The translations under genes and the position numbers were made by a program. A DNA stretch of 27,817 bases from a virus. Positions 14,895 through 27,817 of the stretch are shown here, in pieces (positions within the stretch are counted from its first letter, which is position 1; every line of letters begins with the position of its first letter). The stretch covers positions 1 through 27,817 of the IMG/VR virus record IMGVR_UViG_3300042289_000608; one strand, 5' to 3'. The notes beneath the pieces are model-generated. The model was not told where the DNA came from and made no database searches. It saw nothing but the letters and a program-made list of their open reading frames with translations.

Positions 14895-14895
14895 G

Positions 14896-16084: not shown

Positions 16085-16356
16085 TGTTCCTCCTGGGGGT
16101 TATCTATTTGTATCACACGTTTGTTGGAATATGGGGCGTTCCAGTAATCTTCTCCCCAAATATATGAGGGATGAAGTCCAAGTCTCGTACATATCCTATC
16201 TGCAGTATAGAACCTAATTCCGTTATTCCTACGCCATCCTCTAATCATGTCACGTGTCACACCTATTGATGCGGCAAATTCATGGTCGTTATGGTCAGGA
16301 TCTCGTATTATGCGTTCAAATGGCTCCAGAGCTAGGATTGGCTCTTTAAGCGTCAC
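16081..16356 (-). CDS. Helix-turn-helix DNA-binding protein
   Basis: A 91-residue protein. Residues about 10-65 form a compact helical DNA-binding unit: FERIIRDPDHNDHEFAASIG, then VTRDMIRGWRRNNGIRFYTADRIC, and TRLGLHPSYIWGEDYW. The ASIGVTRDMIRGWRR part reads as helix-turn-recognition helix. The TADRICTRLGLHPSYIWG part is a motif I know from small actinophage HTH proteins. Coupled to neighbours by ATGA at both ends. Likely an operon regulator or an accessory to replication; the target is unknown, although the inverted repeats in the promoter at 16986-17014 are candidates. Confidence 0.65.
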   Translation of the reverse strand: MTLKEPILALEPFERIIRDPDHNDHEFAASIGVTRDMIRGWRRNNGIRFYTADRICTRLGLHPSYIWGEDYWNAPYSNKRVIQIDNPQEEQ

Positions 16357-16622
16357 CGGGAGAACTCTTCTTTTGCTTTAAGGTATCTGTCTTGAATTTC
16401 GAAGACTCTGCGCCATATGGATATATTAGTGGGGTCATCTTGTAATAGATCAATGGCATAGCTAAGATCATCAGCAATCTTCTCCCAATTAATACCACCC
16501 CAGTGATTTGTCCGGGGTTTGTTGGGTTTATTCATCTTCTCCAACATTTTGTCTAATTGGATCTTCTCGTGATGAGCGATAGCTTTTTCTTCTGCTTTAC
16601 GCATTTCGTACCAATCAGCCAC
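16353..16622 (-). CDS. Uncharacterised small helical protein
   Basis: The product is about 89 residues if started at the GTG at 16622, which has a GGGTGGG stretch before it and overlaps the previous stop by a few bases. An ATG at 16667 would overlap the upstream gene by 53 bases, and an ATG at 16604 is a third option. The protein is charged and helical (MRKAEEKAIAHHEKIQLDKML, then WEKIADDLSYAIDLLQDDPT and WRRVFEIQDRYLKAKEE). No motif or family is recognised. It is coupled by ATGA to the HTH gene. Confidence 0.55.
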   Translation of the reverse strand: MADWYEMRKAEEKAIAHHEKIQLDKMLEKMNKPNKPRTNHWGGINWEKIADDLSYAIDLLQDDPTNISIWRRVFEIQDRYLKAKEEFSR

Positions 16623-16884
16623 GTTCCCACCCCATATTGCTAGCTCGCCAGTTAGTTGGAGAGTCATTGGACTCTACAGCTAGACGGTGATCGTGGTCTT
16701 CGTACAACCGGACAATATGTAGGCAGGGGTCATGACCGTCTCCCCAGTCTTCTTCTTCATCTGCAGTAAGGGGCAGACCATCGTGGATGTAGCAAATAGC
16801 GGGACCGCAGTAACCCATTTCCCAACCATAACGCAGCCATGCTTCATGGTCCAACGCAACTGTAATGACTTGATTATCATTCAC
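16615..16884 (-). CDS. Uncharacterised acidic small protein
   Basis: An 89-residue protein from the GTG at 16884, preceded by AGAGG at good spacing; the longer frame upstream is a shadow of the 26-codon gene. It contains DHEAWLRYGWEMGYCGPAICYIHDGLPLTADEEEDW and DPCLHIVRLYEDHDHRLAVE, a combination familiar from conserved hypothetical actinophage genes. Three Cys and several His could hold a metal, but there is no clear pattern. It is the second cistron after the strong promoter at 16993-17021. Confidence 0.6.
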   Translation of the reverse strand: MNDNQVITVALDHEAWLRYGWEMGYCGPAICYIHDGLPLTADEEEDWGDGHDPCLHIVRLYEDHDHRLAVESNDSPTNWRASNMGWERG

Positions 16885-16961
16885 CACACACCTCTTTCTG
16901 TGTCTTTGTCTCTTTCTTGTGGTTGTGGATCTTGTCCACCCCAACGGGTAATATCTTCCAT
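16881..16961 (-). CDS. 26-residue first cistron of the structural operon
   Basis: The ATG at 16961 has an AGAGGAG ribosome site at ideal spacing, 32 bases below the -10 box. The frame encodes MEDITRWGGQDPQPQERDKD and six more residues ending in VW. Its TGA overlaps the next GTG (GTGA). The product is very short and hydrophilic: it may be a functional micropeptide or mainly a translational coupler for the next gene. Confidence 0.5.
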   Translation of the reverse strand: MEDITRWGGQDPQPQERDKDTERGVW

Positions 16962-16992
16962 AGCAGCTCCTCTGCAATAAGTGTCATTGTGA

Positions 16993-17021
16993 ACAATACA
17001 GGCGATTTACCTGTTTGTCAA
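16993..17021 (-). promoter_or_regulatory. Strong promoter of the leftward structural operon with overlapping inverted repeats
   Basis: On the minus strand TTGACA (17021-17016), 17-bp spacer, TATTGT (16998-16993). Two perfect inverted repeats overlap it: ACAGG-N7-CCTGT at 16998-17014 within the spacer, and ATTGT-N2-ACAAT at 16986-16997 across the -10. These look like repressor or activator operators. The -35 box lies just after the stop of the upstream gene. Confidence 0.8.
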
Positions 17022-17023
17022 CA

Positions 17024-17767
17024 CTATTTAGGAAACTTTTTTGACGGAATGTTTGAAGTAGTTTGCCGGCGTTGTTGTTTTATCGTTTTCTCAAGCTTAG
17101 CGTCTCGCCCATCAACTATTTTTTTAGTACCTACTCCTATGCCACCAACAATGCCGGCAGCGCCAGCACCAATAGCAAGGTATTCAGCAAGTAATCTTGC
17201 GTCGCTTTGATTAGCATTTTTAGCCATTTGCTGGTTAAGTTTTTTGTTTTTTGCGGCGGTTTTAATTTTATCCTGAGCTGCTTTTATCTCAGGTTTAGCT
17301 ATCTTGTCAAATGCTTTAGACTCGGATTTACTTAATGGATTAGTTGGAGAGTCAAATTTATAGTTTTTAACTATATTATCGAATGCCTTAGATTCGGCTT
17401 TAGCTGCTGCCTTGGTTCGATAGTCAGTAGCAGCCTTCTGAACAATCTTTTTTCCGGCAGAAGCGACAACAGGTGCAACTTTAGTAATTGCCCTGCCAGC
17501 TACAGCACCGCCTACAGCAGCGCCTACAGCGCCGGCAACTTGGCTTTTACTAATAGGGTTAAGAGCCATCGATGCACCTAAAGGAGTGCCACCGCCGGCT
17601 AAACCACCCGTCGCACTCTTCACCTTAGTCTTAGCATCAGAAGAAAAACGGTTCTTTGCCTTCGAAGTAGCCAACCCCTTAGCAGCAGTACCCTTAGTAG
17701 TAAACGCTTCAGTAGGTTTCTTCTTGGATTCTTTCCATTTGCTTGGATCGCCATAGTTGTTTGCCAT
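17024..17767 (-). CDS. Lys/Ala-rich basic protein with Gly/Ala-rich hydrophobic segments
   Basis: A 247-residue protein, strongly basic (Lys-rich throughout). Two Ala/Gly/Val stretches, about 87-110 (VAGAVGAAVGGAVAGRAITKV) and 195-215 (EYLAIGAGAAGIVGGIGVG), could insert in or cross a membrane. A duplicated motif, SESKAFDKIAK versus AESKAFDNIVK, lies in the middle. The composition resembles internal virion or DNA-ejection proteins and DNA-binding proteins; neither is proven. A -10 box lies 7 bases before the ATG and no ribosome site is visible, so it is probably translated from a leaderless mRNA and transcribed separately from the operon that begins just after it. Confidence 0.6.
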   Translation of the reverse strand: MANNYGDPSKWKESKKKPTEAFTTKGTAAKGLATSKAKNRFSSDAKTKVKSATGGLAGGGTPLGASMALNPISKSQVAGAVGAAVGGAVAGRAITKVAPVVASAGKKIVQKAATDYRTKAAAKAESKAFDNIVKNYKFDSPTNPLSKSESKAFDKIAKPEIKAAQDKIKTAAKNKKLNQQMAKNANQSDARLLAEYLAIGAGAAGIVGGIGVGTKKIVDGRDAKLEKTIKQQRRQTTSNIPSKKFPK

Positions 17768-17780
17768 ATCAAATATAATA
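17768..17780 (-). promoter_or_regulatory. -10 element of a leaderless transcript
   Basis: TATTAT (17780-17775) is followed by 7 bases and then the ATG at 17767. The transcription start would coincide with the start codon. No convincing -35 box is seen. Confidence 0.5.
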
Positions 17781-18360
17781 ACATTTTGTTAGTCCACAGG
17801 TTGCAATCGACACACACAGGGTGTAATCTCTACCTACAACTTACAGACTCATGGCTGTATCACTGTTGCAAGTGACGGGGCGTTCATACTAGGGAACTAG
17901 GGTAGATGAACCCTGCAATCAAGCTAACGACGAGACATACGTTTCCCCCTATTGCGTAAGAGGTTCAAGCAGCGTTATGAACGTCATCTCATTAAATATT
18001 CCGGTGTCGGCTAAAACAAACTAGCTACGGCGACCATCTACACATGTAGTAAACCGTGGGGGGAGCTAATAAACCCACGCCCGTGTAGCAAGTATCCACA
18101 AAATATCCACAGCATGTGTAAAAAAGACTCGCACACCAGGGTAATCCCCCCAGGAATGGAGAACTTTTACTGCGTAATGGGAAAAATAAGCCTCCGGCAA
18201 CAAATCAACACCATCATTCGGAGCCAAAAAAGGCCCAAAAACACCAAAAAGGACCGTTGAACGTGTCTTAACGCTAAAACCGCCCAAATCGAGGTGAAAA
18301 ATTTAAATCAATGTCTACACATCGGTTTTGAAAAGCCCAAACGTACGGGAGTCTGTAGTC
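17781..18360. other. Non-coding region, candidate replication origin with DnaA-box-like sites
   Basis: No supported gene lies here. DnaA-box-like 9-mers occur at 17790-17798 (TAGTCCACA), 18092-18100 (GTATCCACA), 18103-18111 (ATATCCACA) and, on the minus strand, 18115-18123 (TTTTACACA, an exact match to TTWTNCACA). The last three lie within 32 bp, the first two of them 11 bp apart. AT-rich stretches flank them (near 17990-18000 and 18298-18310). There is also a tandem ACTAGGGA-type repeat at 17888-17902 and a GTTCAT/ATGAAC dyad at 17882-17911. Confidence 0.45.
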
Positions 18361-18450
18361 ATTTAGGGTCGTGGGGCCCCCCGTGGGTGGGGGGGGTCGG
18401 GCGTGCTTCCTTCCTGGTCGGGTCGGGTGGGTGGGGGCTTCCCTCCTTCC
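18361..18450 (+). other. G-rich tract with two G-quadruplex motifs
   Basis: On the plus strand G-runs at 18385-18401 (three, eight and three Gs) and 18420-18437 (GGGTCGGGTGGGTGGGGG) each meet the four-run quadruplex rule with loops of one or two bases. Base composition changes sharply here compared with the AT-richer left side. No convincing gene is present. Confidence 0.6.
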
Positions 18451-18454
18451 TCGG

Positions 18455-18643
18455 TCATCTCTGCCGTAGGTGGGGTGTGTTGGGGCTTGCTGTCGGTGGT
18501 GACGTGGCGAGCCTGGGCAAAAGAAGCTTTGAGGTGATCCAGTGCCGGTGACGTGGCCAGGGTGAGCAGGGTGAGCGCGGCGCACTTGTGCGTTGTCTCT
18601 GCGTCTCACGGTGGGCGAGTTGCTTGTGCTCGTGGTTGGTCAT
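18455..18643 (-). CDS. Possible small gene, perhaps frameshifted
   Basis: The ATG at 18643 sits just after a terminator hairpin, in a sequence context (GCTATGAC) like that of the 18936 gene. The first ~20 residues, MTNHEHKQLAHRETQRQR, look real. The rest of the 62-residue frame is Pro/Arg/Ser-rich and shadow-like. The minus-1 frame, open from 18605 to a TAA at 18363-18365, reads more naturally (ALTLLTLATSPALDHLKASF and so on). It could be a gene with a frameshift, or chance in GC-rich DNA. Confidence 0.3.
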   Translation of the reverse strand: MTNHEHKQLAHRETQRQRTSAPRSPCSPWPRHRHWITSKLLLPRLATSPPTASPNTPHLRQR

Positions 18644-18660
18644 AGCAACGGAGACAAAGC

Positions 18661-18692
18661 GAGAAGCCCCACCAACTAGGGCAGGGCTTCTC
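18661..18692 (-). terminator. Terminator-like hairpin
   Basis: GAGAAGCCC (18661-18669) pairs with GGGCTTCTC (18684-18692), a 9-bp perfect stem, followed on the minus strand by CGCTTTGTC. It lies 44 bases beyond the stop of the 18736-18936 gene. Confidence 0.6.
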
Positions 18693-18735
18693 TGTTGAGT
18701 GTTGTTCTGTTGTCAGCGCATTGGGGCGCAGGTGG

Positions 18736-18936
18736 TTAGTAGTCGGTTGCTCCGTGGCAGTAATCGCAGGCGTAGCGTGCGTTCTTTTTGGTCATTTCTT
18801 TTTTCTTGTTGCCACGAAAGTGGAAGGTGTGGTGCTCGCCTGCTTCGTCAATGTGTAAGCAATAGACAACCCATTTCCCGATTTCGGGTGAGTCGTTTGG
18901 CTGTGGGCTTGACGTGTGTATGTGGGTGTATGTCAT
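18736..18936 (-). CDS. Small Cys-pair protein, uncharacterised
   Basis: A 66-residue protein from the ATG at 18936; an in-frame TTG seven codons upstream lies close to the terminator and is not favoured. It contains GKWVVYCLHIDEAGEHHTFHFRGN, a beta-like His-rich segment, and ends with YACDYCHGATDY. The CxxC plus nearby His might bind zinc. There is no ribosome site, but TACTCT lies 6 bases before the ATG, so a leaderless mRNA is likely. It is bracketed by hairpins on both sides, giving a single-gene cassette. Confidence 0.55.
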   Translation of the reverse strand: MTYTHIHTSSPQPNDSPEIGKWVVYCLHIDEAGEHHTFHFRGNKKKEMTKKNARYACDYCHGATDY

Positions 18937-18948
18937 AGCGACAGAGTA
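18937..18948 (-). promoter_or_regulatory. -10 element of a leaderless transcript
   Basis: TACTCT (18948-18943) lies 6 bases before the ATG at 18936 and only 12 bases past the upstream terminator stem. Confidence 0.4.
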
Positions 18949-18960
18949 GCAGGGCAAAGA

Positions 18961-18993
18961 GAAAGCCCCTCAGCAATGCGCCGAGGGGCTTTC
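18961..18993 (-). terminator. Intrinsic terminator of the 19014-20007 operon
   Basis: An 11-bp perfect stem, 18961-18971 with 18983-18993 (GAAAGCCCCTC/GAGGGGCTTTC), with an 11-base loop. It is followed on the minus strand by TCTTT. It lies 20 bases past the operon's last stop. Confidence 0.8.
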
Positions 18994-19013
18994 CTTTGTG
19001 GGGGGAATGGTTG

Positions 19014-19463
19014 CTAGTCGCTGATGGTTGGGTGCGTCACTTCGGGACTGTGCCGGGGGTGAAGGAGTGCGTCATCGAGCCAGTTACTCACGGCGTAGAA
19101 GTTCACCCAATAGAGAAAGCCGAGAAGGTTCTGTCGTTCTTGGTCGGTGACCAGTGGCGACATAAGTGAGACGGCGATCTCTTTGCTGATGGTGTTGGCG
19201 TGTAGTGAAGCCTCGGCACTGCTGGCTTGTTGCGTGATGACGTGGACAGTCGGTGCCGAGTGGCAGAACTCGCAAACAGTCTCCCAATCCCAGACCGAAG
19301 GCGTACGGCTTTCACAGATGACACGCACAGCCCTAGCGACATTTGCGTTCCGTTCGCCGGGTATCTGTGCGAATGTCGGCGTGCGTAGTGGCTCGCCCTG
19401 GGTGATGCGTAGGCAGTCCTGGCACAGTGCCATTGTGCCTGCTTCGAGGTAGGTCGGTTTCAT
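19014..19463 (-). CDS. Two-CxxC zinc-binding-like protein, uncharacterised
   Basis: A 149-residue protein from the ATG at 19463, which overlaps the previous stop (ATGA); the longer frame upstream is a shadow. LCQDC (about 13-17) and CEFCHSAPTVHV (about 66-77) make two CxxC knuckles of zinc-ribbon type, separated by a basic helix (NVARAVRVICESR). The C-terminal half is helical (ISKEIAVSLMSPLVTDQERQ, LLGFLYWVNFYAVSNWLDD). Last gene of a three-gene operon that ends at the terminator at 18961-18993. No family recognised. Confidence 0.55.
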   Translation of the reverse strand: MKPTYLEAGTMALCQDCLRITQGEPLRTPTFAQIPGERNANVARAVRVICESRTPSVWDWETVCEFCHSAPTVHVITQQASSAEASLHANTISKEIAVSLMSPLVTDQERQNLLGFLYWVNFYAVSNWLDDALLHPRHSPEVTHPTISD

Positions 19464-19723
19464 TGCTCGCCCCCCCACACGGCTACGGCACCGTCGTCTG
19501 TGCTTCCGACAATCCACACACCCGACCACTCCCAACGGTTCAGGAACTGCTGAACGGCGTATGCGTACATTTCGCCAGTGTCTACCCCGACCTGCCACTC
19601 GACATACATACGACAAGTGCCATCTGTCTTAGAGAGCACTATGCGATTGGTTTCGGGTAGCCACTTGGCTTTTATAGACGCTCTATGTGAGCGTATGACC
19701 TGTGGTGTATCTGTTGTTTTCAT
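19460..19723 (-). CDS. Uncharacterised small beta-rich protein
   Basis: An 87-residue protein with an alternating strand pattern (SIKAKWLPETNRIVLSKTDGT, RMYVEWQVGVDTG, WSGVWIVGSTDDGAVAVWG) and one helix (AYAVQQFLNRW). The start shares the repeated context GGAACA followed by ATGAAAACAACA with other genes of this region. It overlaps neighbours by 4 bases at both ends. Function unknown. Confidence 0.55.
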   Translation of the reverse strand: MKTTDTPQVIRSHRASIKAKWLPETNRIVLSKTDGTCRMYVEWQVGVDTGEMYAYAVQQFLNRWEWSGVWIVGSTDDGAVAVWGGEQ

Positions 19724-20007
19724 TTTGTGTTCCGTCCTTCGTTGTGAAGGTCTTTGCGCCTTCTGACGGTTGTCTCTTCGACTATGAAACAGGCTCGGCG
19801 CTGTTCGTGGTCCATAGCGAGCCAGTTCAGACCGAGAAGGTCGCAGGCGTGGTTCTTGGGGGTTTCGTCTCCGTAGCCGTAGGAGAATGGCGCAGTTATG
19901 TCTTGCCCCTGACCGATAACTCTAAAAGAGTAGTAACTGTTTCCGTTGATTGTGTCGTGCCAGCGTCTCAAACATAAGACGAATGGCGAGTGTGTTTCTG
20001 TTTTCAC
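19720..20007 (-). CDS. Uncharacterised small protein, first gene of a three-gene operon
   Basis: A 95-residue protein starting at GTG (20007) after AAAGGAACA. It shows an alpha/beta pattern: LCLRRWHDTINGNSYYSFRVIGQ, ITAPFSYGYGDETPKNHACDLLGLNWLAMDHEQRRACFIVEE, then a basic tail. A TATACT -10 box and a hairpin at the predicted mRNA 5' end lie upstream. It overlaps the next gene by 4 bases. No family recognised. Confidence 0.55.
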   Translation of the reverse strand: MKTETHSPFVLCLRRWHDTINGNSYYSFRVIGQGQDITAPFSYGYGDETPKNHACDLLGLNWLAMDHEQRRACFIVEETTVRRRKDLHNEGRNTK

Positions 20008-20027
20008 TTTTTGTTCCTTTCGTGAAT

Positions 20028-20057
20028 GTGGCGTTGCTTGCCACTGGTCAGAGTATA
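20028..20057 (-). promoter_or_regulatory. Promoter -10 and 5'-terminal hairpin of the 19014-20007 operon
   Basis: TATACT (20057-20052) lies 10 bases past a terminator stem. The predicted start near 20045 coincides with a GTGGC-N7-GCCAC hairpin (20044-20028), followed by the AAAGGAACA ribosome site. No clear -35 box is seen. Confidence 0.6.
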
Positions 20058-20067
20058 GACACAGAAA

Positions 20068-20097
20068 AGCCCTAGCAGGTGTATTTCTGCTAGGGCT
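20068..20097 (-). terminator. Intrinsic terminator of the 20170-20793 gene
   Basis: An 11-bp perfect stem (AGCCCTAGCAG/CTGCTAGGGCT, 20068-20078 with 20087-20097) with an 8-base loop, followed on the minus strand by TTTCTGTGTC. Confidence 0.85.
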
Positions 20098-20136
20098 GAT
20101 CTAGTGGGGGGAGTGGTGGCAGGTTTTCAGCTTGTA

Positions 20137-20153
20137 GCCGGGTGAAGGCCGCG
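20137..20153 (+). repeat. 17-bp repeat, copy 1
   Basis: GCCGGGTGAAGGCCGCG occurs here and again exactly at 21244-21260. Both copies lie just downstream of a minus-strand gene stop, between that stop and its terminator hairpin. Confidence 0.7.
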
Positions 20154-20169
20154 CCGAACCTACGTTGTT

Positions 20170-20793
20170 TTAGTCGCTCTCGGTGTCGTTCTCGCTCTCG
20201 TCACTCTCGCCAACTATACGCAGAAAGTGTGCGAGACGGTCAGCGCAGGTTTTGACTTGTGTCTCTGTGAGTTCTGCTCGCTTGCTGGTGAAGTAATCCA
20301 TCAGGGAATGAATGAAGGCAGAACCCCACACGGCGAGCGCAACGCTATCTAGCGTCACGGTTATGTCACCTGATGCTTCACCATTGGCACGAAGTGTGTC
20401 GGCAACCTCACCAGCCTGGGTGAACATTGTCATCACGCTGGCTTGTTGAGCGTCTAGGGGGCTAATGGCGTGTACCAACTCAACACGCTTTCTTTCGGGG
20501 TGTTGGCTCGGTGGCATTGTCACTTCTCCGTCATCACCTAACGGTGAAGCCCAACCACCTGAAACAAGCACAATGGCGTCAGGGCGTTTTTTTGGTGTGG
20601 CGACATACTTCGCACCATTGTCGAGAATGTAGTGCGTCATCAGCTCGTAGATACTCACGTCATCTTTTGTTGGCTCGTAGCGCACCCATTCAGCACCGAA
20701 CATTTGCCACAGTTCAGGGTTCTCTTTGGTGTCGGGGGTTGCTTTTGGTTGGCAGGCTATGAAGTTATCTAGAACTTCGGTAGTGGTTTCCAT
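20170..20793 (-). CDS. Uncharacterised acidic-tailed protein, likely paralogue of the 21678-22499 product
   Basis: A 207-residue protein from the ATG at 20793 (site AAAGGAACA). A much longer frame upstream is rejected because it covers a plus-strand gene. Features: IYELMTHYILDNGAKYVATP, PDAIVLVSGGWASPLGDDGEV (strand, Gly-turn), HPERKRVELVHAIS, then a helical C-terminal half and an acidic tail ESDESENDTESD. The arrangement M-x2-H...NG...AI-x-LV-x2-G recurs in the AAA/VWA operon's third gene, which also ends in an Asp/Ser tail. It is a single-gene transcript with its own promoter and terminator. Function unknown. Confidence 0.6.
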   Translation of the reverse strand: METTTEVLDNFIACQPKATPDTKENPELWQMFGAEWVRYEPTKDDVSIYELMTHYILDNGAKYVATPKKRPDAIVLVSGGWASPLGDDGEVTMPPSQHPERKRVELVHAISPLDAQQASVMTMFTQAGEVADTLRANGEASGDITVTLDSVALAVWGSAFIHSLMDYFTSKRAELTETQVKTCADRLAHFLRIVGESDESENDTESD

Positions 20794-20811
20794 TGGTCTG
20801 TTCCTTTCAGG

Positions 20812-20839
20812 ACTGGCGTGTTTGCCAGTAGTCACTATA
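20812..20839 (-). promoter_or_regulatory. Promoter -10 and 5'-terminal hairpin of the 20170-20793 gene
   Basis: TATAGT (20839-20834); the predicted start near 20827 falls in an ACTGGC-N6-GCCAGT hairpin (20829-20812). The AAAGGAACA site and ATG follow. Confidence 0.55.
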
Positions 20840-20888
20840 CACAACAAAACTTCTGACATTGCGACACCCAACCCACCTTCTACTCGGT

Positions 20889-21191
20889 ATGACACAACTA
20901 ATACCTTCCCCACCTGCCTACCTAGCGAAGTCCCCTGGTGAATGGACACCAAGAGATCGGTTCGAGCGTGAGGTGGATTGGCACTGCCAACACAAAACCA
21001 TTCTGCGCCCTCGTTGCCGTGAGTGGGTGGAGTTCTCTGAACGCTTTGTGCCGTTCTGCGAGGACTGGAACGGTTGTTGGGTGGCAGAGACAGCCGTTTT
21101 TGAGTGGAACTTGTACCTACGGCTCCCCGAAGGTGAATACGAACCAGTCGAGTATGAACCTGGCTATCACTTCCGAATGGGCTACCCATAA
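20889..21191 (+). CDS. Uncharacterised small protein on the plus strand
   Basis: A 100-residue protein from the ATG at 20889, divergent from the 20793 gene and convergent with the 21505 gene. It contains EWTPRDRFEREVDWHCQHKTILRPRCREWVEFSERFVPFCEDWNGCW, in which four Cys and two His might form a zinc site (described here as a region around residues 18-65). It ends with a Glu/Tyr/Pro-rich strand segment (EGEYEPVEYEPGYHF). No ribosome site is visible. Amino-acid composition and position before a hairpin support coding. No family recognised. Confidence 0.55.
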   Translation: MTQLIPSPPAYLAKSPGEWTPRDRFEREVDWHCQHKTILRPRCREWVEFSERFVPFCEDWNGCWVAETAVFEWNLYLRLPEGEYEPVEYEPGYHFRMGYP

Positions 21192-21198
21192 GACAAAA

Positions 21199-21229
21199 GC
21201 CCCACCCGACACGGATAGTCAGGTGGGGC
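21199..21229 (-). terminator. Terminator between convergent genes
   Basis: GCCCCACC/GGTGGGGC stem (21199-21206 with 21222-21229), followed on the minus strand by TTTTGTC. It therefore serves the 21266-21505 gene, and perhaps weakly the plus-strand gene. Confidence 0.7.
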
Positions 21230-21243
21230 AGATGATCAGGTGT

Positions 21244-21260
21244 GCCGGGTGAAGGCCGCG
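21244..21260 (+). repeat. 17-bp repeat, copy 2
   Basis: Identical to 20137-20153. It lies between the stop of the 21266-21505 gene and its terminator. Confidence 0.7.
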
Positions 21261-21265
21261 AAACT

Positions 21266-21505
21266 TTACGGTTCTAGTGGCTCTCTCTTTCGCTTTGGTT
21301 GGTACGCAGGGTGTTGTTTCCTAGAAGCTTCTTTTTGTTTTGCTTTGAGTTGGGCAAGTTCGGCAAACAGTTCATCTACCAACCACTCGGTATTTTCTAG
21401 TTCATCTACCAGTTGTTGTACTGCTCGTGCTTGGTCAAAAATGGCTAAGGCACTAGCAAGGGTGATGAAACAGAGTGAGACTAAAAGCCACGTTTCGTAT
21501 GACAT
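21266..21505 (-). CDS. Small membrane protein with coiled coil
   Basis: A 79-residue protein from the ATG at 21505, preceded by GAAAGGAACA; the frame upstream is not used. One N-terminal membrane segment (about 6-23, LLVSLCFITLASALAIF) precedes a heptad-like helix (ARAVQQLVDELENTEWLVDE, on through FAELAQLKAKQKEA) and a basic tail KRKREPLEP. Such topology is seen in spanin-like and Rz-like proteins as well as in many unrelated phage membrane proteins, so no function is given. It has its own promoter and terminator. Confidence 0.6.
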   Translation of the reverse strand: MSYETWLLVSLCFITLASALAIFDQARAVQQLVDELENTEWLVDELFAELAQLKAKQKEASRKQHPAYQPKRKREPLEP

Positions 21506-21526
21506 AGGAATGTTCCTTTCGTTGTT

Positions 21527-21552
21527 GTGGGGTATCCACGAAGGCGAGAATA
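21527..21552 (-). promoter_or_regulatory. Promoter -10 and small 5' hairpin of the 21266-21505 gene
   Basis: TATTCT (21552-21547) begins 6 bases past the preceding terminator stem. The predicted start near 21540 adjoins a short GTGG-N5-CCAC hairpin (21539-21527) and then GAAAGGAACA. Confidence 0.5.
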
Positions 21553-21553
21553 A

Positions 21554-21598
21554 CAGAGAAGCCCCACCAGTGGGGGGACACTGGCAGGGCTTCATCTG
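21554..21598 (-). terminator. Terminator of the AAA/VWA operon
   Basis: GAAGCCC pairs with GGGCTTC (21558-21564 with 21587-21593), and CCAGTG with CACTGG inside it (21567-21572 with 21579-21584). It is followed on the minus strand by TCTGTTATTCT. It lies 80 bases past the operon's last stop. Confidence 0.65.
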
Positions 21599-21677
21599 TG
21601 TGGCGTTGTGAAATAGGGAGAAGGAAAAAGGAAAAGAAAAACCTCAACCCCTACGCCAACACTTGGCAGGCTATCGG

Positions 21678-22499
21678 CTAATGCCCCCACTCACTACTGT
21701 CGCTGTCGCTGTCGCCAAAACCAATGTCGCCGTTAGCGATACCAGCAGACACCATTTTGAGAAGGAACGCCAGCATTGAGCGACCTTCTACTGTGTCTGT
21801 GCCTATCTCGCCAGCCGTATCCATTAGCCCCTGAATGGTTGGTGCGTGACCCCTGCTTAGACATTCCCAAGTGAGGCGAACGAAGGTCATAGCTTGCGTC
21901 AGGGCATCATCTACAACACCACTGCTTTCAGGTGTGGCTTCTCTTGCGTCTTGTTCGTGTCGCTCGACCAAAGGTTCTGTGTCACTATAAAAAATCGTTG
22001 CTTCACTGACTAGTCCTGTTTCAGAGATCAGGTTCACCACCCTTGTTGGCACAAAGCCCTTAGCGATTAGTTCTCCCATTGCCGGGTCAATAGACAAGGC
22101 TTCTTGGATTTCTGCTTCGCTCGCACCATCTACCCCACCATCTACCTGAACAATCGTGGAAGGGTTGTCTATCGCTTGGTACGCCATACGCCCTTGACCG
22201 TGTGTAACTAGGGCAATCGCATTGAGAAAAGGTGTATGCGCGGCTTCACCGTTTCCTTCGTGATGCTCTCGCATAATCTCTACCATTTCTAGCGTGCCTT
22301 CGTTCAGGCTTTCAGGTGGCGCAATGGAAGTGCCAGCAACACGCCAGCGAGAAGTCCAAGCTTCTTTTTTGGTGTCGTATTCGCTTACGAGCAAATAGCA
22401 AAAAGCAATGTGTTCGTTACCTGTTGCTCGGTACTTGACAAGACCGTATTTGGCTTGGAGTTCGTCTAGTAACTCTGATGGGCTTTTTGTTGTTTTCAT
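21678..22499 (-). CDS. Third gene of the AAA/VWA operon, uncharacterised acidic-tailed protein
   Basis: A 273-residue protein. Residues about 1-115 are alpha/beta, with VEIMREHHEGNG followed by FLNAIALVTHGQGRMAYQAID, which aligns by eye with the 20170-20793 product. The middle (ASEAEIQEALSIDPAMGELI) and the region 195-255 are helical. It closes with the acidic tail DSDSDSSEWGH. The start context is GAAGGAACA before ATGAAAACAACA, and ATGA overlaps the VWA gene stop. Tight coupling means it is probably made with the ATPase and the VWA protein and may be their substrate, adaptor or inhibitor. No known family recognised. Confidence 0.65.
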   Translation of the reverse strand: MKTTKSPSELLDELQAKYGLVKYRATGNEHIAFCYLLVSEYDTKKEAWTSRWRVAGTSIAPPESLNEGTLEMVEIMREHHEGNGEAAHTPFLNAIALVTHGQGRMAYQAIDNPSTIVQVDGGVDGASEAEIQEALSIDPAMGELIAKGFVPTRVVNLISETGLVSEATIFYSDTEPLVERHEQDAREATPESSGVVDDALTQAMTFVRLTWECLSRGHAPTIQGLMDTAGEIGTDTVEGRSMLAFLLKMVSAGIANGDIGFGDSDSDSSEWGH

Positions 22500-23998
22500 T
22501 GTTCTGTTCCTTCGTTGGTTTCTTCTTGGGGCAGGTAGTGATCTATGAAGTTTTGTAAATAGCTGACGTGTCGTTGTCTAGGAAACCTACCACGCAGTTT
22601 CATTTCTCGTAGTAACTCAATCGCACCTTCGGTACTTTCCACGCCGATAATGTCGTGCTTGACAATGAAGGCGCACACCTGAGCAATAAGGCTGTCTGTT
22701 TGGTTGTCACCTTTGCCAGTCACACCACCGTCACTTATCCACATTAGGAACTCTTTACGGTTTTTACGCTGACGCACTGCCCATTGGAGAATGGGCAAGT
22801 CCACGCCATTGCCGTGACGAAGATTTATCTGTGAAAAGTTGTGTTGGCTAATCATCTTGCCGTTTTTGGCAAGTATCCAGGCGTTAGGACCTTTGTCTCG
22901 TTGCGTGTAGGCAACAATCGTTGCGCCTGAATAGTGGTGGAGAATGTCTAACACTTGACTGTGCGAAAGAGACATTGAGCCTGAACAGTCCACAACGACA
23001 ATGCCACCGTGAGACTTCACAGTTTCACGAAAAATACGTCGTTCAGGGTCAGTGAGCAGGCGATCAGGTCGAACAGGAAACTTGCCGGTCATAGATGGCC
23101 GTTTGCGCTTACCGATAAACGCACTCGCTGTCTCGGTGAGTGCTGTCATACCGAAACGCAATGTTTCCCACTCAACCTTCTTTTCGCTGTGTCCGTGTCT
23201 ATCCAAGCCACCTTTCATCAGCCCTTTCTCAAACTTCTGTTCTGCTGTCGGTGGGTGACCTTTCCACTCGTCAATGAGATGAGCGAGAGGGAGTGTGTGT
23301 TCCACAAAGCCACCTGGAAGCAGTGCTTTTTCGTTTTGACCTTTATCTGTTTTCCATTCGTATTTATAACTGTAAGTGCTACTAAGAGAACGAAAAGATG
23401 TTTTGTATCTGTAAGCAGACTTGACCGAATAACCTTCCCTTCGCAGTTTTTTGTCAATGACTTGTAAGGCTGTTTTCCATTGTGGAATTGCGCTTAGGTG
23501 GCGTTTCACTTTGGCGTTTATGTCAGTGTTATAGGTGTTGAGATACATACTTAGTGCTAGTTGCCAATCTTTATTTTCGACTGCTTTTTTCGCAACTGCC
23601 ACTTCTGAACCGTCAGCAAGATGAGGTAAAGACGACAAGATACTTTCGCCTTCTCGGTTTTTTGCCGTAAGACCGAGAAGATTTATGCGTACTTCTTCTG
23701 CTGTACGGACAGACTGCTGTGTTGTTCCCATTTGGCTTAGAAGCTCTATGGGAACAGAGGTCGGTGAAAACCGTGCGTGTAACAGTTCGTGCGCCCGAAC
23801 TGCCTTCGCACTGTCGGTGTCTCCTGCTGGCACTGACATTTCGTGAGTACCGAAGTCTGTGTAGTTGCTTCCTCGGTGAATGGGGGCGACAGTTGTCTGC
23901 CACCCCCCCGACACACGCTCATCAATTTTTCTATCTAACCGACGTGCCGTCACCCATTCAGGCGCGGCGACTGGTGCTGGTGCTGATTTCTCTCGCAT
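22496..23998 (-). CDS. VWA-domain protein with N-terminal HExxH motif (CobT/MoxR-partner-like)
   Basis: A 500-residue protein. Near the N-terminus VRAHELLHARFSP (HELLH at 70-74), with AEEVR at 100-104 downstream, has the layout of a gluzincin-like metal site (two His plus a later Glu) and is also the signature of CobT-like VWA proteins. The middle (about 115-300) is helical and basic. Residues about 331-485 form a von Willebrand A domain: MIDAS DCSGS (337-341), GNGVDLP near 396-402 at the place of the MIDAS Thr, and ISDGG (421-425). Such proteins pair with AAA+ ATPases of the MoxR/CobS class to remodel or metallate targets. The ATG shares a base with the ATPase stop (TAATG). No signal peptide, so it is cytoplasmic. 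Confidence 0.85.
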   Translation of the reverse strand: MREKSAPAPVAAPEWVTARRLDRKIDERVSGGWQTTVAPIHRGSNYTDFGTHEMSVPAGDTDSAKAVRAHELLHARFSPTSVPIELLSQMGTTQQSVRTAEEVRINLLGLTAKNREGESILSSLPHLADGSEVAVAKKAVENKDWQLALSMYLNTYNTDINAKVKRHLSAIPQWKTALQVIDKKLRREGYSVKSAYRYKTSFRSLSSTYSYKYEWKTDKGQNEKALLPGGFVEHTLPLAHLIDEWKGHPPTAEQKFEKGLMKGGLDRHGHSEKKVEWETLRFGMTALTETASAFIGKRKRPSMTGKFPVRPDRLLTDPERRIFRETVKSHGGIVVVDCSGSMSLSHSQVLDILHHYSGATIVAYTQRDKGPNAWILAKNGKMISQHNFSQINLRHGNGVDLPILQWAVRQRKNRKEFLMWISDGGVTGKGDNQTDSLIAQVCAFIVKHDIIGVESTEGAIELLREMKLRGRFPRQRHVSYLQNFIDHYLPQEETNEGTEQ

Positions 23999-24792
23999 TA
24001 TTCACTCTCCGTAGATGGTGCTTCTATTGTCCGAACTTCTGATGGCTCAACTTCTAGTGGTTCACGGTCATTGAGAAACTGCTCGGTGATAGCAATGGCT
24101 TCGTTGATGGCGTTTGCTTCCTCACCGAACACCAAGCGAACTGCCGTGTGTCGGTCAATCTTGTTCGCTAACTGCTCATAAGCAAAGAACGAGCGCAACG
24201 AGAAACGACTGTGTGTTCGGTTCGCATACGAGCGAGCGACATCTTGTAGTTCGGGTTTCAGTGCCAACAATGCTTGTGGGTTCACTTCGTTGATGTTGAT
24301 GCGAACAGGGAAACGATCTACAAGGTTCTGTGGAAGGTCACTTAGTTTCTCGGCATTGGTGGTTGCGATTATCTCAAAACCTGCTTTTGGAGAAATACGT
24401 GCGCCAGTTTCGGGGTGTTCACGAACGGCAGAACCGTTGCTGTCACAGATAAGCAATAACGCTGTAAGAACGTCACCTGACGCTTGGTCTAGTTCATCAA
24501 GAATAAGACGGTCACCATTTGACCAAGCACGAAGGGCAGAACCCACTACGAACTGCCAATCGTCTTTGCTCGGCTTCCACAGACCATCTACATCTGCTGT
24601 TGTCATATCGGGAGAACACAAAACTCGGTGTGATGAACGCAAACGGTTCTCGTGTTCTAGGTGCTCTGTCAATGCGTAGTAAGTCTTACCAGTGCCGGGT
24701 GGCCCATAAAGAAGCACACGGTCAATGCCACTCGCAAGGGCAATGTCCAAGTCGTTCCAGCATTGGCTAGTTACAGGGGTTGGGGTTTTCAT
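23998..24792 (-). CDS. MoxR/CobS-like AAA+ ATPase
   Basis: A 264-residue protein. Walker A GPPGTGKT (30-37), Walker B LILDELDQ (96-103), sensor 1 ATTN (143-146), and an arginine-finger-like LVDRFP (158-162). The helical lid (about 200-250) is short. The segment SPDMTTADVDGLW (60-72) is the pore/insert region typical of the MoxR group. It would assemble as a hexamer and act with the VWA protein encoded next. First gene of a three-gene operon with a leader hairpin and an AGGAGAACA ribosome site. The C-terminus is Glu/Pro-rich (EPLEVEPSEVRTIEAPSTESE). All motifs intact. Confidence 0.9.
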   Translation of the reverse strand: MKTPTPVTSQCWNDLDIALASGIDRVLLYGPPGTGKTYYALTEHLEHENRLRSSHRVLCSPDMTTADVDGLWKPSKDDWQFVVGSALRAWSNGDRLILDELDQASGDVLTALLLICDSNGSAVREHPETGARISPKAGFEIIATTNAEKLSDLPQNLVDRFPVRININEVNPQALLALKPELQDVARSYANRTHSRFSLRSFFAYEQLANKIDRHTAVRLVFGEEANAINEAIAITEQFLNDREPLEVEPSEVRTIEAPSTESE

Positions 24793-24822
24793 TTTGTTCT
24801 CCTAATGAACTTTTGTGATGAA

Positions 24823-24872
24823 CTCGGCGTTGCCGAGAGAGTGAGTATGCCATAGATTATGAACTATGGCAA
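24823..24872. promoter_or_regulatory. Divergent promoters with shared 22-bp operator
   Basis: Minus: TTGCCA (24872-24867), 17 bp, CATACT (24849-24844), predicted start at a CTCGGC-N3-GCCGAG hairpin (24837-24823), driving the AAA/VWA operon. Plus: TTGCCG (24830-24835), 17 bp, TAGATT (24853-24858), 7 bp before the ATG at 24866. A dyad GCCATAG-N8-CTATGGC at 24849-24870 covers both. Confidence 0.75.
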
Positions 24873-25165
24873 CAACCATTTCAGAAATACAACAACTAGC
24901 AGACGAACTCACCATTGTTGCGCCCCCACCACCCCCACCACCCACACTGAACAATGTTGTTGCGAACAGTGGAAGGTGGGTTGTTAGGGCTATCGGTGGT
25001 GGATCGTATGCGCTACGAGTTGAGTACGCGACAGCGAACGGTGGCACAGTGATCACACGAGTAGATGACGAAGCTTTCGGTTTTCCTTCCACACTTCGTA
25101 CTTCACTTAGGTTCGCATTACAGATAGCGAACTCGCACAGGTTGTATTGGCAACCAGTTCACTAA
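24866..25165 (+). CDS. Proline-tract small protein, divergent from the AAA/VWA operon
   Basis: A 99-residue protein. A helix (TTISEIQQLADELTIV) is followed by eight consecutive prolines (residues about 19-26... APPPPPPPP-like, seven or eight in the reading), then a beta-rich part (RWVVRAIGGGSYALRVEYAT, GGTVITRVDDEAFGFP) and a closing helix (LRTSLRFALQIANSHR). It is expected to be translated from a leaderless mRNA, because TAGATT is 7 bases before the ATG. Polyproline needs EF-P for efficient translation, so expression may be slow. It shares an operator with the AAA/VWA operon and could be its regulator or partner. No family recognised. Confidence 0.6.
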   Translation: MATTISEIQQLADELTIVAPPPPPPPTLNNVVANSGRWVVRAIGGGSYALRVEYATANGGTVITRVDDEAFGFPSTLRTSLRFALQIANSHRLYWQPVH

Positions 25166-25198
25166 CCCCTGCCGAAGCAGCGTCACCGTGCCGGGTGG

Positions 25199-25204
25199 TA
25201 AAAT
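25199..25204 (+). promoter_or_regulatory. -10 element of a leaderless transcript
   Basis: TAAAAT lies exactly 7 bases before the ATG at 25212, the same spacing as at 24866 and 17767. No good -35 box. Confidence 0.5.
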
Positions 25205-25211
25205 AGCCAGT

Positions 25212-25505
25212 ATGGAAAGTAAAGATCTCGCACGTGCTGAGTTTGTAATCAAATCCCCACCACCCTCACGCTCAGGTTATCGTTTTGACGTTCCCATTAT
25301 GTCAGAGTTCGTTTCGTTCCTTGACGCTAACGAAGGCGTTTGGGCTATCTATCACACTTACGCAACAAAACAATCAGGGTATCAACGAGCTTGCGATGCT
25401 AATAAGCAATACGGAAAAGAATACGAGTTTGTCGCACGTGTGGATGAAAATGGTGCGACAGTTTATGGAAGAAAAATCTCTCACGCTGGCGCAAATAACA
25501 CTTAG
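25212..25505 (+). CDS. Uncharacterised small protein on the plus strand
   Basis: A 97-residue protein from the ATG at 25212; a GTG eight codons earlier would place the start upstream of the -10 box. It has ESKDLARAEFVIKSPPPSRSGY, FVSFLDANEGVWAIYHTYATK and GKEYEFVARVDENGATVYGRK. This alpha-beta pattern resembles small phage proteins whose function is not known. Likely leaderless. A very strong terminator follows 30 bases after the stop. Confidence 0.6.
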   Translation: MESKDLARAEFVIKSPPPSRSGYRFDVPIMSEFVSFLDANEGVWAIYHTYATKQSGYQRACDANKQYGKEYEFVARVDENGATVYGRKISHAGANNT

Positions 25506-25534
25506 TGGGTGTATACTTACCTCGCTCCTAATGC

Positions 25535-25577
25535 CCAAAATCCCCTCTGACGGTTATTCCGTTAGGGGGGATTTTGG
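25535..25577 (+). terminator. Very strong intrinsic terminator of the plus-strand gene
   Basis: A 19-bp stem (two G-U pairs), 25535-25553 with 25559-25577, 5-base loop TTATT, followed by TTTATC on the plus strand. Confidence 0.9.
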
Positions 25578-25593
25578 TTTATCATTGTATTGT

Positions 25594-25625
25594 CCTAGAG
25601 AGAGTCGCCTCCTCCTCTCTCTAGG
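25594..25625 (-). terminator. Hairpin at the end of the recombination operon
   Basis: CCTAGAGAGAG pairs with CTCTCTCTAGG (25594-25604 with 25615-25625), an 11-bp perfect stem four bases past the RecT-like stop. The U-run after it is weak, so it may act mainly as an mRNA end. Confidence 0.6.
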
Positions 25626-25629
25626 GCAC

Positions 25630-26511
25630 CTACACTGCTTTTGAGTCCATTGCTTCTTTGCAAGCAACCCACAGTTTTTCGTCGTGAGCAAGTTCGTGGT
25701 ATGAGATAGGCATGTTGTCTCGACCAAGCTTCTTTACATAAACGGCGGCGATCGCCTTTACATATGGCCAACGACCCCAACTTGACGCAATCTCTAAACG
25801 CTCCTCAAATGACGGCGTAGTGCTTTTGGTTTTCAAAGCTTCTTCAACGACTTCCTCTACTGGTGTCATCTTAATCGCTTCACCAACCTTCTTGCGTGGT
25901 TTTGGTTTTGGTTCTTCTTCAACGATCTCGGCTTCAACGATTTCATCGTCTAAAGTAATTGGTTTCTCAATGGCCGGCGCAGGGGAAACATTTGGTTCTT
26001 CGTATTCAACGCCAGCGATGCTTGCTACTTCTTCGGGGGTGTACGAAAGACCAGCAATAACGTCAGGAAACACGATACGACACAGTTCGCTCGTAGCTCT
26101 CGCAAGCAACATTGCTCTTGGGTATGTCTTCCAGTTGTTCTTACCAGCAAGACCAGCCATTCTTGCATCGTCAAGTGTCCAGCGAACTGTTGCTGTTGAT
26201 CCAGTATCGGCTCGTGTTCCTTTGACCTCGCATACATCGTTGCTGTTCTCAATCACATCAATACGGTGTCCGTGTCTCGCCACCATTGCTCGCATTAATT
26301 CGGGCGACATTGCTGTGCGACCCTCAATGACGTGAATGCTGTTTAGCGACTGCATTGGTCCAAGCCCAAGTTCTGCTCCGTACAGAACACATGCCAAGAC
26401 TGCTTCGTTCTTGCCACGTAATGCTGTTGGCACAAATGGTGTGTTGCTGATTCGTTGCGAAAGCTTCCAAAGCGTTTCGTAATCTGTGTTTGGTATTGCT
26501 ATCTCTGTCAT
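25630..26511 (-). CDS. recT: RecT-like single-strand annealing protein
   Basis: A 293-residue protein from the ATG at 26511, which has GGAG upstream. Residues about 8-170 match the RecT annealing core: FVPTALRGKNEAVLACVLYGAELGLGPMQSLNSIHVIEGRTAMSPELMRAMV is its signature (spanning roughly residues 24-76). It is followed by ATVRWTLDDARMAGL and KNNWKTYPRAMLLARATSELCRIVFPDVI. A Glu/Lys/Pro linker leads to a C-terminal helical domain (about 235-293). It would anneal single strands during phage recombination, together with the SSB. No exonuclease partner is visible in the window. Last gene of the rightmost operon. Confidence 0.85.
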   Translation of the reverse strand: MTEIAIPNTDYETLWKLSQRISNTPFVPTALRGKNEAVLACVLYGAELGLGPMQSLNSIHVIEGRTAMSPELMRAMVARHGHRIDVIENSNDVCEVKGTRADTGSTATVRWTLDDARMAGLAGKNNWKTYPRAMLLARATSELCRIVFPDVIAGLSYTPEEVASIAGVEYEEPNVSPAPAIEKPITLDDEIVEAEIVEEEPKPKPRKKVGEAIKMTPVEEVVEEALKTKSTTPSFEERLEIASSWGRWPYVKAIAAVYVKKLGRDNMPISYHELAHDEKLWVACKEAMDSKAV

Positions 26512-26519
26512 GGTTGCTC

Positions 26520-27032
26520 CTACTTTGTTATTGAGATCGTTTGACGACCCCAGGTTACACTGCAATAGTCTTCTATGTCAATGTTTTCTTTTTTCAATTC
26601 ACCAGTTCTCCATCCAAGAGAACCAGTAAGCGGCAAGACCCTTTGAAGGGTGTCAATAAGACTAAATATATCAGAAGGGTGTATCTCGCCAGTTTCGGTT
26701 TGTAGCTTGCTAGACACAATATCTTCCAGCAATCTATTGCTCTCCCACTTCTTAGTGTTGGCACGGCGCTTTTCAAGGATGCCAACGCCCTCGATCACTG
26801 TCTTTTTGTCCGGCATCAATCCGTAAATGTCAAGCTCGATCTGTTGAATCAACATGATCAAATTAGTTTTAAAATCGTTAAGATTTACTAAACCAACTGC
26901 AAGCGTGTTCCAATCGCCCGCCTCTGCTAGTTGTGCTCGGTAATCATCCATTGCAAGCAGTGCGCTTTGGAATGATGCAAGGTAGTCGTTAGAAACTACT
27001 TCTTGTGCTTGTACTACAATGTCTTTTGACAT
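26520..27032 (-). CDS. Conserved-hypothetical helical protein next to RecT
   Basis: A 170-residue protein with AGGAGG before the ATG. The N-terminal half is long helices (FQSALLAMDDYRAQLAEAGD, LNDFKTNLIMLIQQIELDI). Then VIEGVGILEKRRANTKKWESNRLLEDIV carries a basic stretch that I associate with conserved phage genes near recombination modules. The C-terminus is mixed (VLPLTGSLGWRTGELKKENID). No catalytic motif seen. Probably a DNA-recombination accessory by position. Confidence 0.6.
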   Translation of the reverse strand: MSKDIVVQAQEVVSNDYLASFQSALLAMDDYRAQLAEAGDWNTLAVGLVNLNDFKTNLIMLIQQIELDIYGLMPDKKTVIEGVGILEKRRANTKKWESNRLLEDIVSSKLQTETGEIHPSDIFSLIDTLQRVLPLTGSLGWRTGELKKENIDIEDYCSVTWGRQTISITK

Positions 27033-27050
27033 GGTGCCTCCTATGGCTAT

Positions 27051-27464
27051 TTAACATCCACGCTTCCAGCGTTGGACTTTCTTGTGATTAGAACGACAGA
27101 TGAACTCTTGTAAGTTCATACAGTTTTGACGCTTTATTGTACCCCAACCCCATGGTCCTACAGGCCATTTGTATTGACCTTTTTTAGTAAATCCCATGAA
27201 CGCAATGTTATCAACTACTTTTGCTTGGTGTTCAAAACTCATGCCTTTTGCGCTTGTGTGATTTGAGTACTGTTGCCAAGTGCGTCGGTAGATACCAAAT
27301 GCCCCTGTATAGGAGCGTGTCGAATGGTTTACATTACCGGCAGTTTCGCATTGAGCTAGCCGTTTATAAAACTCCATTGGCATAACCAATTTGCTTTTAG
27401 CCATAGCCGGCGCAGGAAATGCTAATGAAATTGCAAGTATCGAAGATATAAGTATTTTTCTCAT
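27051..27464 (-). CDS. Secreted Rpf-like transglycosylase
   Basis: A 137-residue protein. Residues 1-22 are a signal peptide (RKILISSILAISLAFPAPAMA). The mature part has FYKRLAQCETAGN with Glu40 at the place of the catalytic Glu of resuscitation-promoting factors and lysozyme-like transglycosylases. Next come YTGAFGIYRRTWQQYS (the GxFGI/QFSxxTW equivalent) and WPVGPWGW. Cys39 and a later Cys (in RQNC) can form the conserved disulfide. It should cleave peptidoglycan glycan strands outside the membrane. It is coupled by ATGA to the preceding gene and sits in the recombination operon rather than with late lysis genes. Confidence 0.75.
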   Translation of the reverse strand: MRKILISSILAISLAFPAPAMAKSKLVMPMEFYKRLAQCETAGNVNHSTRSYTGAFGIYRRTWQQYSNHTSAKGMSFEHQAKVVDNIAFMGFTKKGQYKWPVGPWGWGTIKRQNCMNLQEFICRSNHKKVQRWKRGC

Positions 27465-27661
27465 GCTTCCACCTTTGTTCGGCGTTTCTTTGCCACGATC
27501 AGCTTAACGCTGTGTGAGTCACGAAACATACCATGACCTGATATGCCTCCGTACAAAAGATAACTTCCGTCTTTGTTGTAGCCTTTGATTTTGTATTCGC
27601 CAGGCTGACGTGGAATCTTAACTAAGCTACCGACAGGCAGCCGCTCTTGGTCTTTTTTCAT
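27461..27661 (-). CDS. Small basic SH3/KOW-like protein, first gene of the recombination operon
   Basis: A 66-residue protein; two ATGs in tandem (27664 and 27661) follow AGGAG, and the second has better spacing. LPVGSLVKIPRQPGEYKIKGYNKDGSYLLYGG is a small beta-barrel-like segment (described as one piece around residues 8-40), followed by a basic end KKRRTKVEA. Nucleic-acid or protein binding is plausible. No family named. Confidence 0.55.
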   Translation of the reverse strand: MKKDQERLPVGSLVKIPRQPGEYKIKGYNKDGSYLLYGGISGHGMFRDSHSVKLIVAKKRRTKVEA

Positions 27662-27693
27662 CATTGCTCCTAACAACGTTATGTGTGGCTTCT

Positions 27694-27721
27694 ATTTTAC
27701 CACTTGATTGAGATTATGCAA
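27694..27721 (-). promoter_or_regulatory. Promoter of the recombination operon
   Basis: On the minus strand TTGCAT (27721-27716), 16 bp, TAAAAT (27699-27694). The start is near 27687, about 26 bases before the first ATG, with AGGAG. Confidence 0.7.
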
Positions 27722-27723
27722 CC

Positions 27724-27816
27724 CTACAAAGAATTGTGGGGATTTATTACACTATCAAAAGGGGAATCATCTTCAATGTTTTCAACATACCAATAGTGGG
27801 TATTTGTGATATAAGA
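27724..27816 (-). CDS. Partial C-terminal end of an upstream gene
   Basis: The frame is open from the right edge to a TAG at 27726-27724, encoding 30 residues (ending in ENIEDDSPFDSVINPHNSL). Composition is protein-like and acidic, and it ends just before the promoter. Too short for a function. Confidence 0.4.
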   Translation of the reverse strand, partial: SYITNTHYWYVENIEDDSPFDSVINPHNSL

Positions 27817-27817
27817 A

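Follow-up and report, generated by a model that had tools for sequence, protein, structure and literature searches.

In jumbo phages, a MoxR-type AAA+ ATPase (ASV44729.1) is paired with a von Willebrand factor A (vWA) protein (ASV44728.2) that carries an N-terminal metallopeptidase fusion, and the pair has been proposed to act in virion assembly (PMC7824862). Pairs in cyanophages and archaeal viruses have been labelled CobST (PMC8651126). Phage MoxR–vWA or CobST-like pairs are widespread and their labels are contradictory: vitamin B12 synthesis, peptidase, virion chaperone. Here we describe such a pair, followed by a third gene, in a 27,817-bp stretch of viral DNA (the window), which is the entire IMG/VR record IMGVR_UViG_3300042289_000608, linear and possibly a fragment. 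The three genes may encode a remodelling protease with an adaptor or client of its own.

The locus had been picked out from the sequence alone (the original prediction) as a candidate for an undescribed phage system. This is not supported as it stands, since the jumbo-phage arrangement, in which a MoxR ATPase adjoins a vWA protein fused at its N terminus to a metallopeptidase, is already published and resembles the window pair by description, and the cyanophage CobS plus ‘peptidase’ genes have the same layout. In cyanophage S-SM1, for example, a CobS-like ATPase is encoded near a T4-like ‘peptidase’ (PHROG 459) with HExxH...EDxR and a metal-ion-dependent adhesion site (MIDAS), and both genes are sited among replication genes. 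The S-SM1 peptidase differs in its length of 702 amino acids (aa), its long acidic linker and its position upstream of cobS; its profile match is limited to the metal-site helices (E = 0.03), and no member of the partner family X described below was found in the S-SM1 record. The freshwater Actinomycetia phage DSL-LC01 (OQ999401) has an AAA+ protein (99.3% profile probability) adjacent to an HExxH...EExR plus vWA protein. The latter, annotated as a ‘cobalamin biosynthesis protein’, is 609 aa long with a long linker and matches over the metal site (E = 0.004); again no X was found. Among bacterial systems, compared through the literature and Pfam, RavA–ViaA and CoxD–CoxE share the logic of a MoxR ATPase with a vWA co-chaperone (PMC7159879, PMC3893208). 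The VMAP/iSTAND/FtsH/beta-propeller ternary conflict systems likewise combine MoxR, vWA and a third protein (PMC7159879), whereas the third gene of the window has no Pfam match. What is new here, relative to the jumbo-phage pair, is the occurrence in small phages (the window contig is 27.8 kb, those of third-gene relatives mostly 10–44 kb), the third gene, the X-family partners and a sister clade in which the protease appears to be dead.

The ATPase and the metallopeptidase-like vWA protein

The three genes all lie on the minus strand and overlap, as originally predicted for 21678–24792. The AAA+ gene (264 aa, 23998..24792) shares 1 bp (TAATG) with the vWA gene (500 aa, 22496..23998), which in turn shares 4 bp (ATGA) with the third gene (273 aa, 21678..22499). 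A hairpin resembling an intrinsic terminator, with a 15-bp stem, follows the third gene (21558..21593, minus strand), so AAA–vWA–third reads as a single transcription unit.

The ATPase matches Pfam AAA_5 with 61.2 bits against a cut-off of 22; its bpMoxR score, 18.9 bits, is under the cut-off of 27. Across 89 distinct relatives, Walker A, the Walker B DE, the sensor-1 N, the DR(F) arginine-finger position and R200 vary little or not at all, which bears out the assignment as a MoxR/CobS-type ATPase with intact motifs. Identity to the window protein is 66–71% across most of its clade and 51% for the most distant member.

The vWA protein, which matches PHROG 33218 (E = 4e-34), carries HELLH at residues 70–74 (23777..23791, minus strand), the predicted metal-binding and catalytic helix, and E101–E102 on the next helix (23693..23698, minus strand), the predicted third metal ligand (gluzincin Glu). 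In the alignment H70, E71, H74, E101, E102 and R104 show no variation within the window clade, and every full-length homologue of the HExxH type that was checked has HExxH followed by E[ED]xR. Distant relatives on contigs as long as 172 kb share this combination, as do Gordonia phage Sixama gp115, the S-SM1 peptidase of cyanophage origin and the protein of phage DSL-LC01. Thus, HELLH is not a chance motif. The MIDAS motif DCSGS (residues 337–341; 22976..22990, minus strand) is equally well kept: D337-x-S339-x-S341 together with D423 was present in 46 of 47 non-redundant relatives, the lone exception being a gap. These alignments confirmed the predicted combination of MIDAS, HELLH and downstream Glu in one protein.

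In an AlphaFold2 model of the vWA protein (mean predicted local distance difference test score, pLDDT, 70.5), in which the metal site was judged by helix placement, the two halves of the motif fall on separate helices, residues 62–77 and 94–116. HExxH with a downstream Glu on a second helix is the gluzincin arrangement, and zinc binding and peptidase activity are predicted on that basis. The best fold matches in the PDB were the vWA domains of a TFIIH subunit and of Rpn10, and these were weak.

Conservation of the metal site holds in the window clade and in larger phages, but not in the largest related clade, so that the condition set by the original prediction for its own refutation had a mixed outcome. 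In this sister clade, the HExxH residues were present in none of 37 non-redundant vWA proteins: position 70 is Y, F or L, position 71 is G, A, V, L or S, and position 74 is L, R or M. The flanking R68 and R76 are mostly retained; the MIDAS is kept, and the ATPase is intact in both clades. On the tree, two changes between presence and absence of the metal site are needed; a single switch explains the main split, as one of the two stems from L084, whose branch is very long and uncertain. Since the site also occurs in larger phages and in distant relatives, its loss in the sister clade seems likelier than several gains. The two clades, one with an invariant site and the other without it, form a natural comparison that bears on the contribution of the protease and on the ligand of the vWA domain.

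The pair itself is strictly coupled. Viral loci were collected with the ATPase profile (80 loci) and with the vWA profile (62 loci), and some 100 viral contigs proved to carry the pair, with the two genes almost always side by side. The vWA gene adjoins the ATPase gene in about 75 of 81 loci, the remainder being mostly contig ends, and the same adjacency was seen in the second locus set; the commonest AAA/vWA junction is an overlap of 1 or 4 bp. Conserved co-occurrence, which the original prediction had proposed as a check, was thus borne out for the ATPase and vWA genes, and the third gene is tied to the pair (below). At the sensitivity used, the pair was found in 0 of 84,980 bacterial and archaeal genomes. 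A scan of genome contigs with a profile from the vWA alignment gave no relatives, and the vWA, third and X proteins had no BLAST match in 50,697 phage records. A3Wally gp244, which adjoins an AAA gene, was tried as a vWA partner and rejected as an RIIA-like protein.

The third gene, gene X and their acidic tails

The third protein is as originally described, an acidic-tailed protein of 273 aa without a name: searches of Pfam, PHROG, PADLOC and NCBIfam gave no match to it. The gene was found in 13 contigs (the window and 12 others), all within the immediate clade of the window, and lies directly 3' of the vWA gene in 12 of the 12 contigs that show the upstream gene; the thirteenth is a contig-end fragment. 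The third gene is therefore linked to AAA/vWA genes rather than scattered, but its confinement to one clade rules it out as a component of all such pairs. It evolves fastest of the three, with protein identities of ∼21–33% compared with 66–71% for the ATPase in the same clade. The AlphaFold2 model (pLDDT 77.8, predicted template modelling score 0.75, from an alignment that included one false row, L011) is alpha/beta with a low-confidence acidic tail, and a search of this fold against the PDB gave no significant match. A homologue was found in BFVD (A0A6J5QDN9, E = 5e-10, 28% identity); the weaker BFVD matches include two phage proteins of ∼150 aa, which may be X-like. The inclusion of L011/L021 as a third-gene member was withdrawn when leaving out one sequence at a time exposed a false alignment row. 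In Gordonia phage Sixama (gp115–gp117), a 263-aa protein with no assigned function lies between the AAA+ and HExxH/vWA genes; this protein, gp116, was considered as a relative of the third gene and rejected, having no profile relationship to it.

A commoner partner of the pair than the third gene is gene X, which the original prediction overlooked. In the window it encodes 209 aa (20170..20799, minus strand), belongs to a family with the signature GWxxP...PSxHPxRRRV, and has its own leader hairpin. Sister-clade loci usually read X–AAA–vWA–X'. Altogether 141 X genes were found in 77 of 81 AAA loci, 69 upstream and 72 downstream, and the X subgroups are linked to one another by profile comparison (92–99% probability). 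A DNA pattern for X was found in at least 120 viral stretches, and 117 of 120 among the matches listed encode X by profile; in genome contigs the figure was 16 of 119. Eighteen of 48 X-bearing contigs searched whole carry this ATPase, all with E < 1e-65, and of 27 records inspected for their pair, 13 contain X. X was rejected as an obligate partner, since in the other 30 X-bearing contigs such an ATPase was not found, though many are fragments. Thus, X is associated with the pair yet not dependent on it. X is also widespread in viral contigs generally (L157–L276 and others, with further examples in L278, L292, L299, L304, L315, L319, L322 and L332) and occurs in some contigs of metagenome-assembled genomes (MAGs) of Actinomycetota/Acidimicrobiia; it belongs to no Pfam family.

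The order of predicted strands and helices, judged by eye, is similar in the third protein and X, which suggests that they may be paralogous; their hhalign score, 15.7 compared with a maximum of 14.9 for shuffled profiles, does not demonstrate kinship. Both have acidic C-terminal tails. The net acidic excess over the last 15 residues was 5.4 for the third protein and 1.8 to 2.8 for the X subgroups, compared with −1.4 for 59 control families and −2.7 for the vWA proteins, whose tail is basic; in this comparison the sequences are related, so that p-values are not independent, and the control families come from mechanical picking of open reading frames. The metal ion of a MIDAS is typically bound by an acidic ligand residue, and the tails are therefore plausible as a device for docking on the vWA MIDAS. 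Having two linked partner families helps in asking what the vWA domain binds.

Possible functions of the operon

The module has RecT/exonuclease/RecE/WhiB and SSB genes on one side and terminase on the other. Comparison with contig L005 showed DNA identity of 86–89% at 25241–27817 and 13908–18396, that is, on both flanks and including the start of the packaging genes, while protein identity was 96% for RecT, 70% for the ATPase, 49% for the vWA protein and 31% for the third protein. Because the flanks are conserved and the module strongly diverged, the module region has probably been exchanged by recombination.

We favour, with something short of even confidence, the reading that these genes specify a phage remodelling protease of AAA+/vWA type with a lineage-specific adaptor or client, acting on a protein of the host or on one of phage DNA metabolism. 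As in other members of its family, the AAA+ subunits would form a ring on which the vWA protein docks, with the MIDAS metal ion gripping a partner or client by an acidic stretch. ATP-driven movements would then expose the client to the N-terminal gluzincin (HELLH...EE), which would cut it. The third protein would serve this lineage as its adaptor, or would itself be the dedicated client, and would be presented by way of the acidic tail at its C terminus; in the sister clade the machine would work without cleavage, with X-type partners instead. As the module lies between the recombination, WhiB and SSB genes and terminase, its products probably appear before DNA packaging or at about that time. 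The target would most likely be a protein of the host, or one from phage DNA metabolism, and not a virion component.

Several observations are consistent with this reading. The AAA+ motifs are intact, the vWA gene is strictly adjacent, and HExxH and E101/E102 are invariant together, the HExxH residues having apparently been lost in one sister clade that retains the MIDAS. The constant position of the third gene behind the vWA gene and the acidic third and X tails, set against the basic vWA tail, would suit an adaptor or client, and the cyanophage CobS plus ‘peptidase’ and phage DSL-LC01 offer the same architecture by analogy. The neighbourhood also fits, and cassette exchange accords with a function under pressure from the host or from rivals. 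Other points weigh against it. Metal binding, ATPase activity and cleavage are all predicted from motifs, and the fold searches gave weak matches. Phage proteins often have acidic tails, and the ones compared here belong to related sequences; cassette exchange is common in phage early regions and has many causes. The sister clade, moreover, indicates that proteolysis is dispensable for whatever maintains the pair.

A role in virion assembly, with a MoxR–vWA chaperone of peptidase activity folding and trimming head or tail proteins, is possible but doubtful. Such a role has been proposed for the jumbo-phage pair on the model of the Acidianus two-tailed virus tail chaperones (PMC7824862), and sister-clade phages have the module just ahead of terminase. 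However, the module clusters with genes for recombination, WhiB and SSB and not with structural genes, and it has diverged between the window and L005 while the start of the packaging genes has not, although a chaperone should track its client. Neighbourhood and exchange thus argue mildly against a pure virion-assembly role.

A broader version of the remodelling-protease reading, which we regard as unlikely, is a family that switches between an active metalloprotease and a protease-dead form, in which exchangeable acidic-tailed partners (the third protein and X) pick the target through the vWA MIDAS, the whole serving freshwater actinobacterial phages as an exchangeable cassette for host takeover or as a weapon between phages. 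A pure counter-host or inter-phage conflict system, with the third protein and X as exchangeable effectors or specificity factors activated by the machine, seems less probable again. The rapid evolution of the third protein, the exchange of the module as a cassette and the multi-copy, patchy occurrence of X would fit it, and bacterial conflict systems are built around MoxR–vWA pairs (PMC7159879). Against this, PADLOC gave no match of substance, only short or weak matches to the ATPase, so that the suggested defence against other phages gained no direct support either; no toxin, nuclease or peptidase domain was found in the third protein or X, and third components of the VMAP type were not detected.

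That the metal at HELLH...EE is structural or regulatory, and the operon a chaperone without proteolysis throughout, is quite improbable; the sister clade has indeed lost the metal site and kept the AAA+/MIDAS machine, but E71 is invariant wherever the histidines are, and a purely structural site would let it vary. That the genes encode CobST-like cobaltochelatase subunits boosting host cobalamin synthesis is hardly credible: the annotation tradition for the cyanophage and archaeal-virus relatives (PMC8651126) and the matches of the AAA+ profile to S-SM1 CobS (98.2% probability) and the DSL-LC01 AAA protein (99.3%) speak for it, but there was no CobT- or CobS-specific match in Pfam or NCBIfam, CobN, which the host might supply, was found in 0 of 29 records searched and the large subunit of ribonucleotide reductase in 0 of 19 small phages, and HExxH...EE is a peptidase-type site, needless for a chelatase. 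With no CobT or CobN match, the suggested sabotage of metal cofactors likewise gained no direct support. Some large pair-bearing contigs (G025, G049, G050 and G053) gave ribonucleotide-reductase-like matches, to two pieces of one open frame and barely above the cut-off.

Regulation, host and neighbouring genes

The original prediction gave the operon its own regulated promoter and a divergent gene. A sigma-70-like candidate, TTGCCA-17-CATACT (24844..24872, minus strand), was found by a consensus scan, but such generic sites are no commoner in the region than expected by chance. What does recur is a leader comprising a -10-like box, a hairpin with a GGCAAnnACGCC core, a purine-rich stretch and the start codon. 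In the window this element occurs on the minus strand before the AAA gene (hairpin CTCGGCAACGCCGAG, 24823..24837, just after the promoter candidate and at the same place in relatives), before X (20828) and before one further gene (20044). Twelve copies were counted in window-clade loci, compared with 0.8 expected from mononucleotide shuffles, although the loci are related and the copies not independent. The element is possibly a shared regulatory or RNA-stabilising signal.

The divergent gene (99 aa, 24866..25165, plus strand) stood up well, with a homologue divergent from AAA in 9 of the 9 loci that reach that far (35–48% identity). A second divergent gene (105 aa, 25188–25505, plus strand), with no assigned function, had tblastn matches only in L002 and L003; at its place, several more loci carry genes of one cluster. 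In the DNA comparison with L005, only parts of AAA (72%) and vWA (67–69%) align within 18396–25241, and the third gene does not.

The window also contains RecT, SSB, WhiB, terminase, portal, capsid and tail genes. The host is probably a freshwater actinobacterium: the WhiB genes point to actinobacteria, and X homologues occur in MAG contigs of Actinomycetota. Aquatic actinobacterial hosts are poorly served by phage isolates, and the phages described here come from metagenomes. Near the tail genes, at 1068–2111, the window carries a beta-1,4-glycosyltransferase-like gene (PHROG 13126, E = 1e-106).

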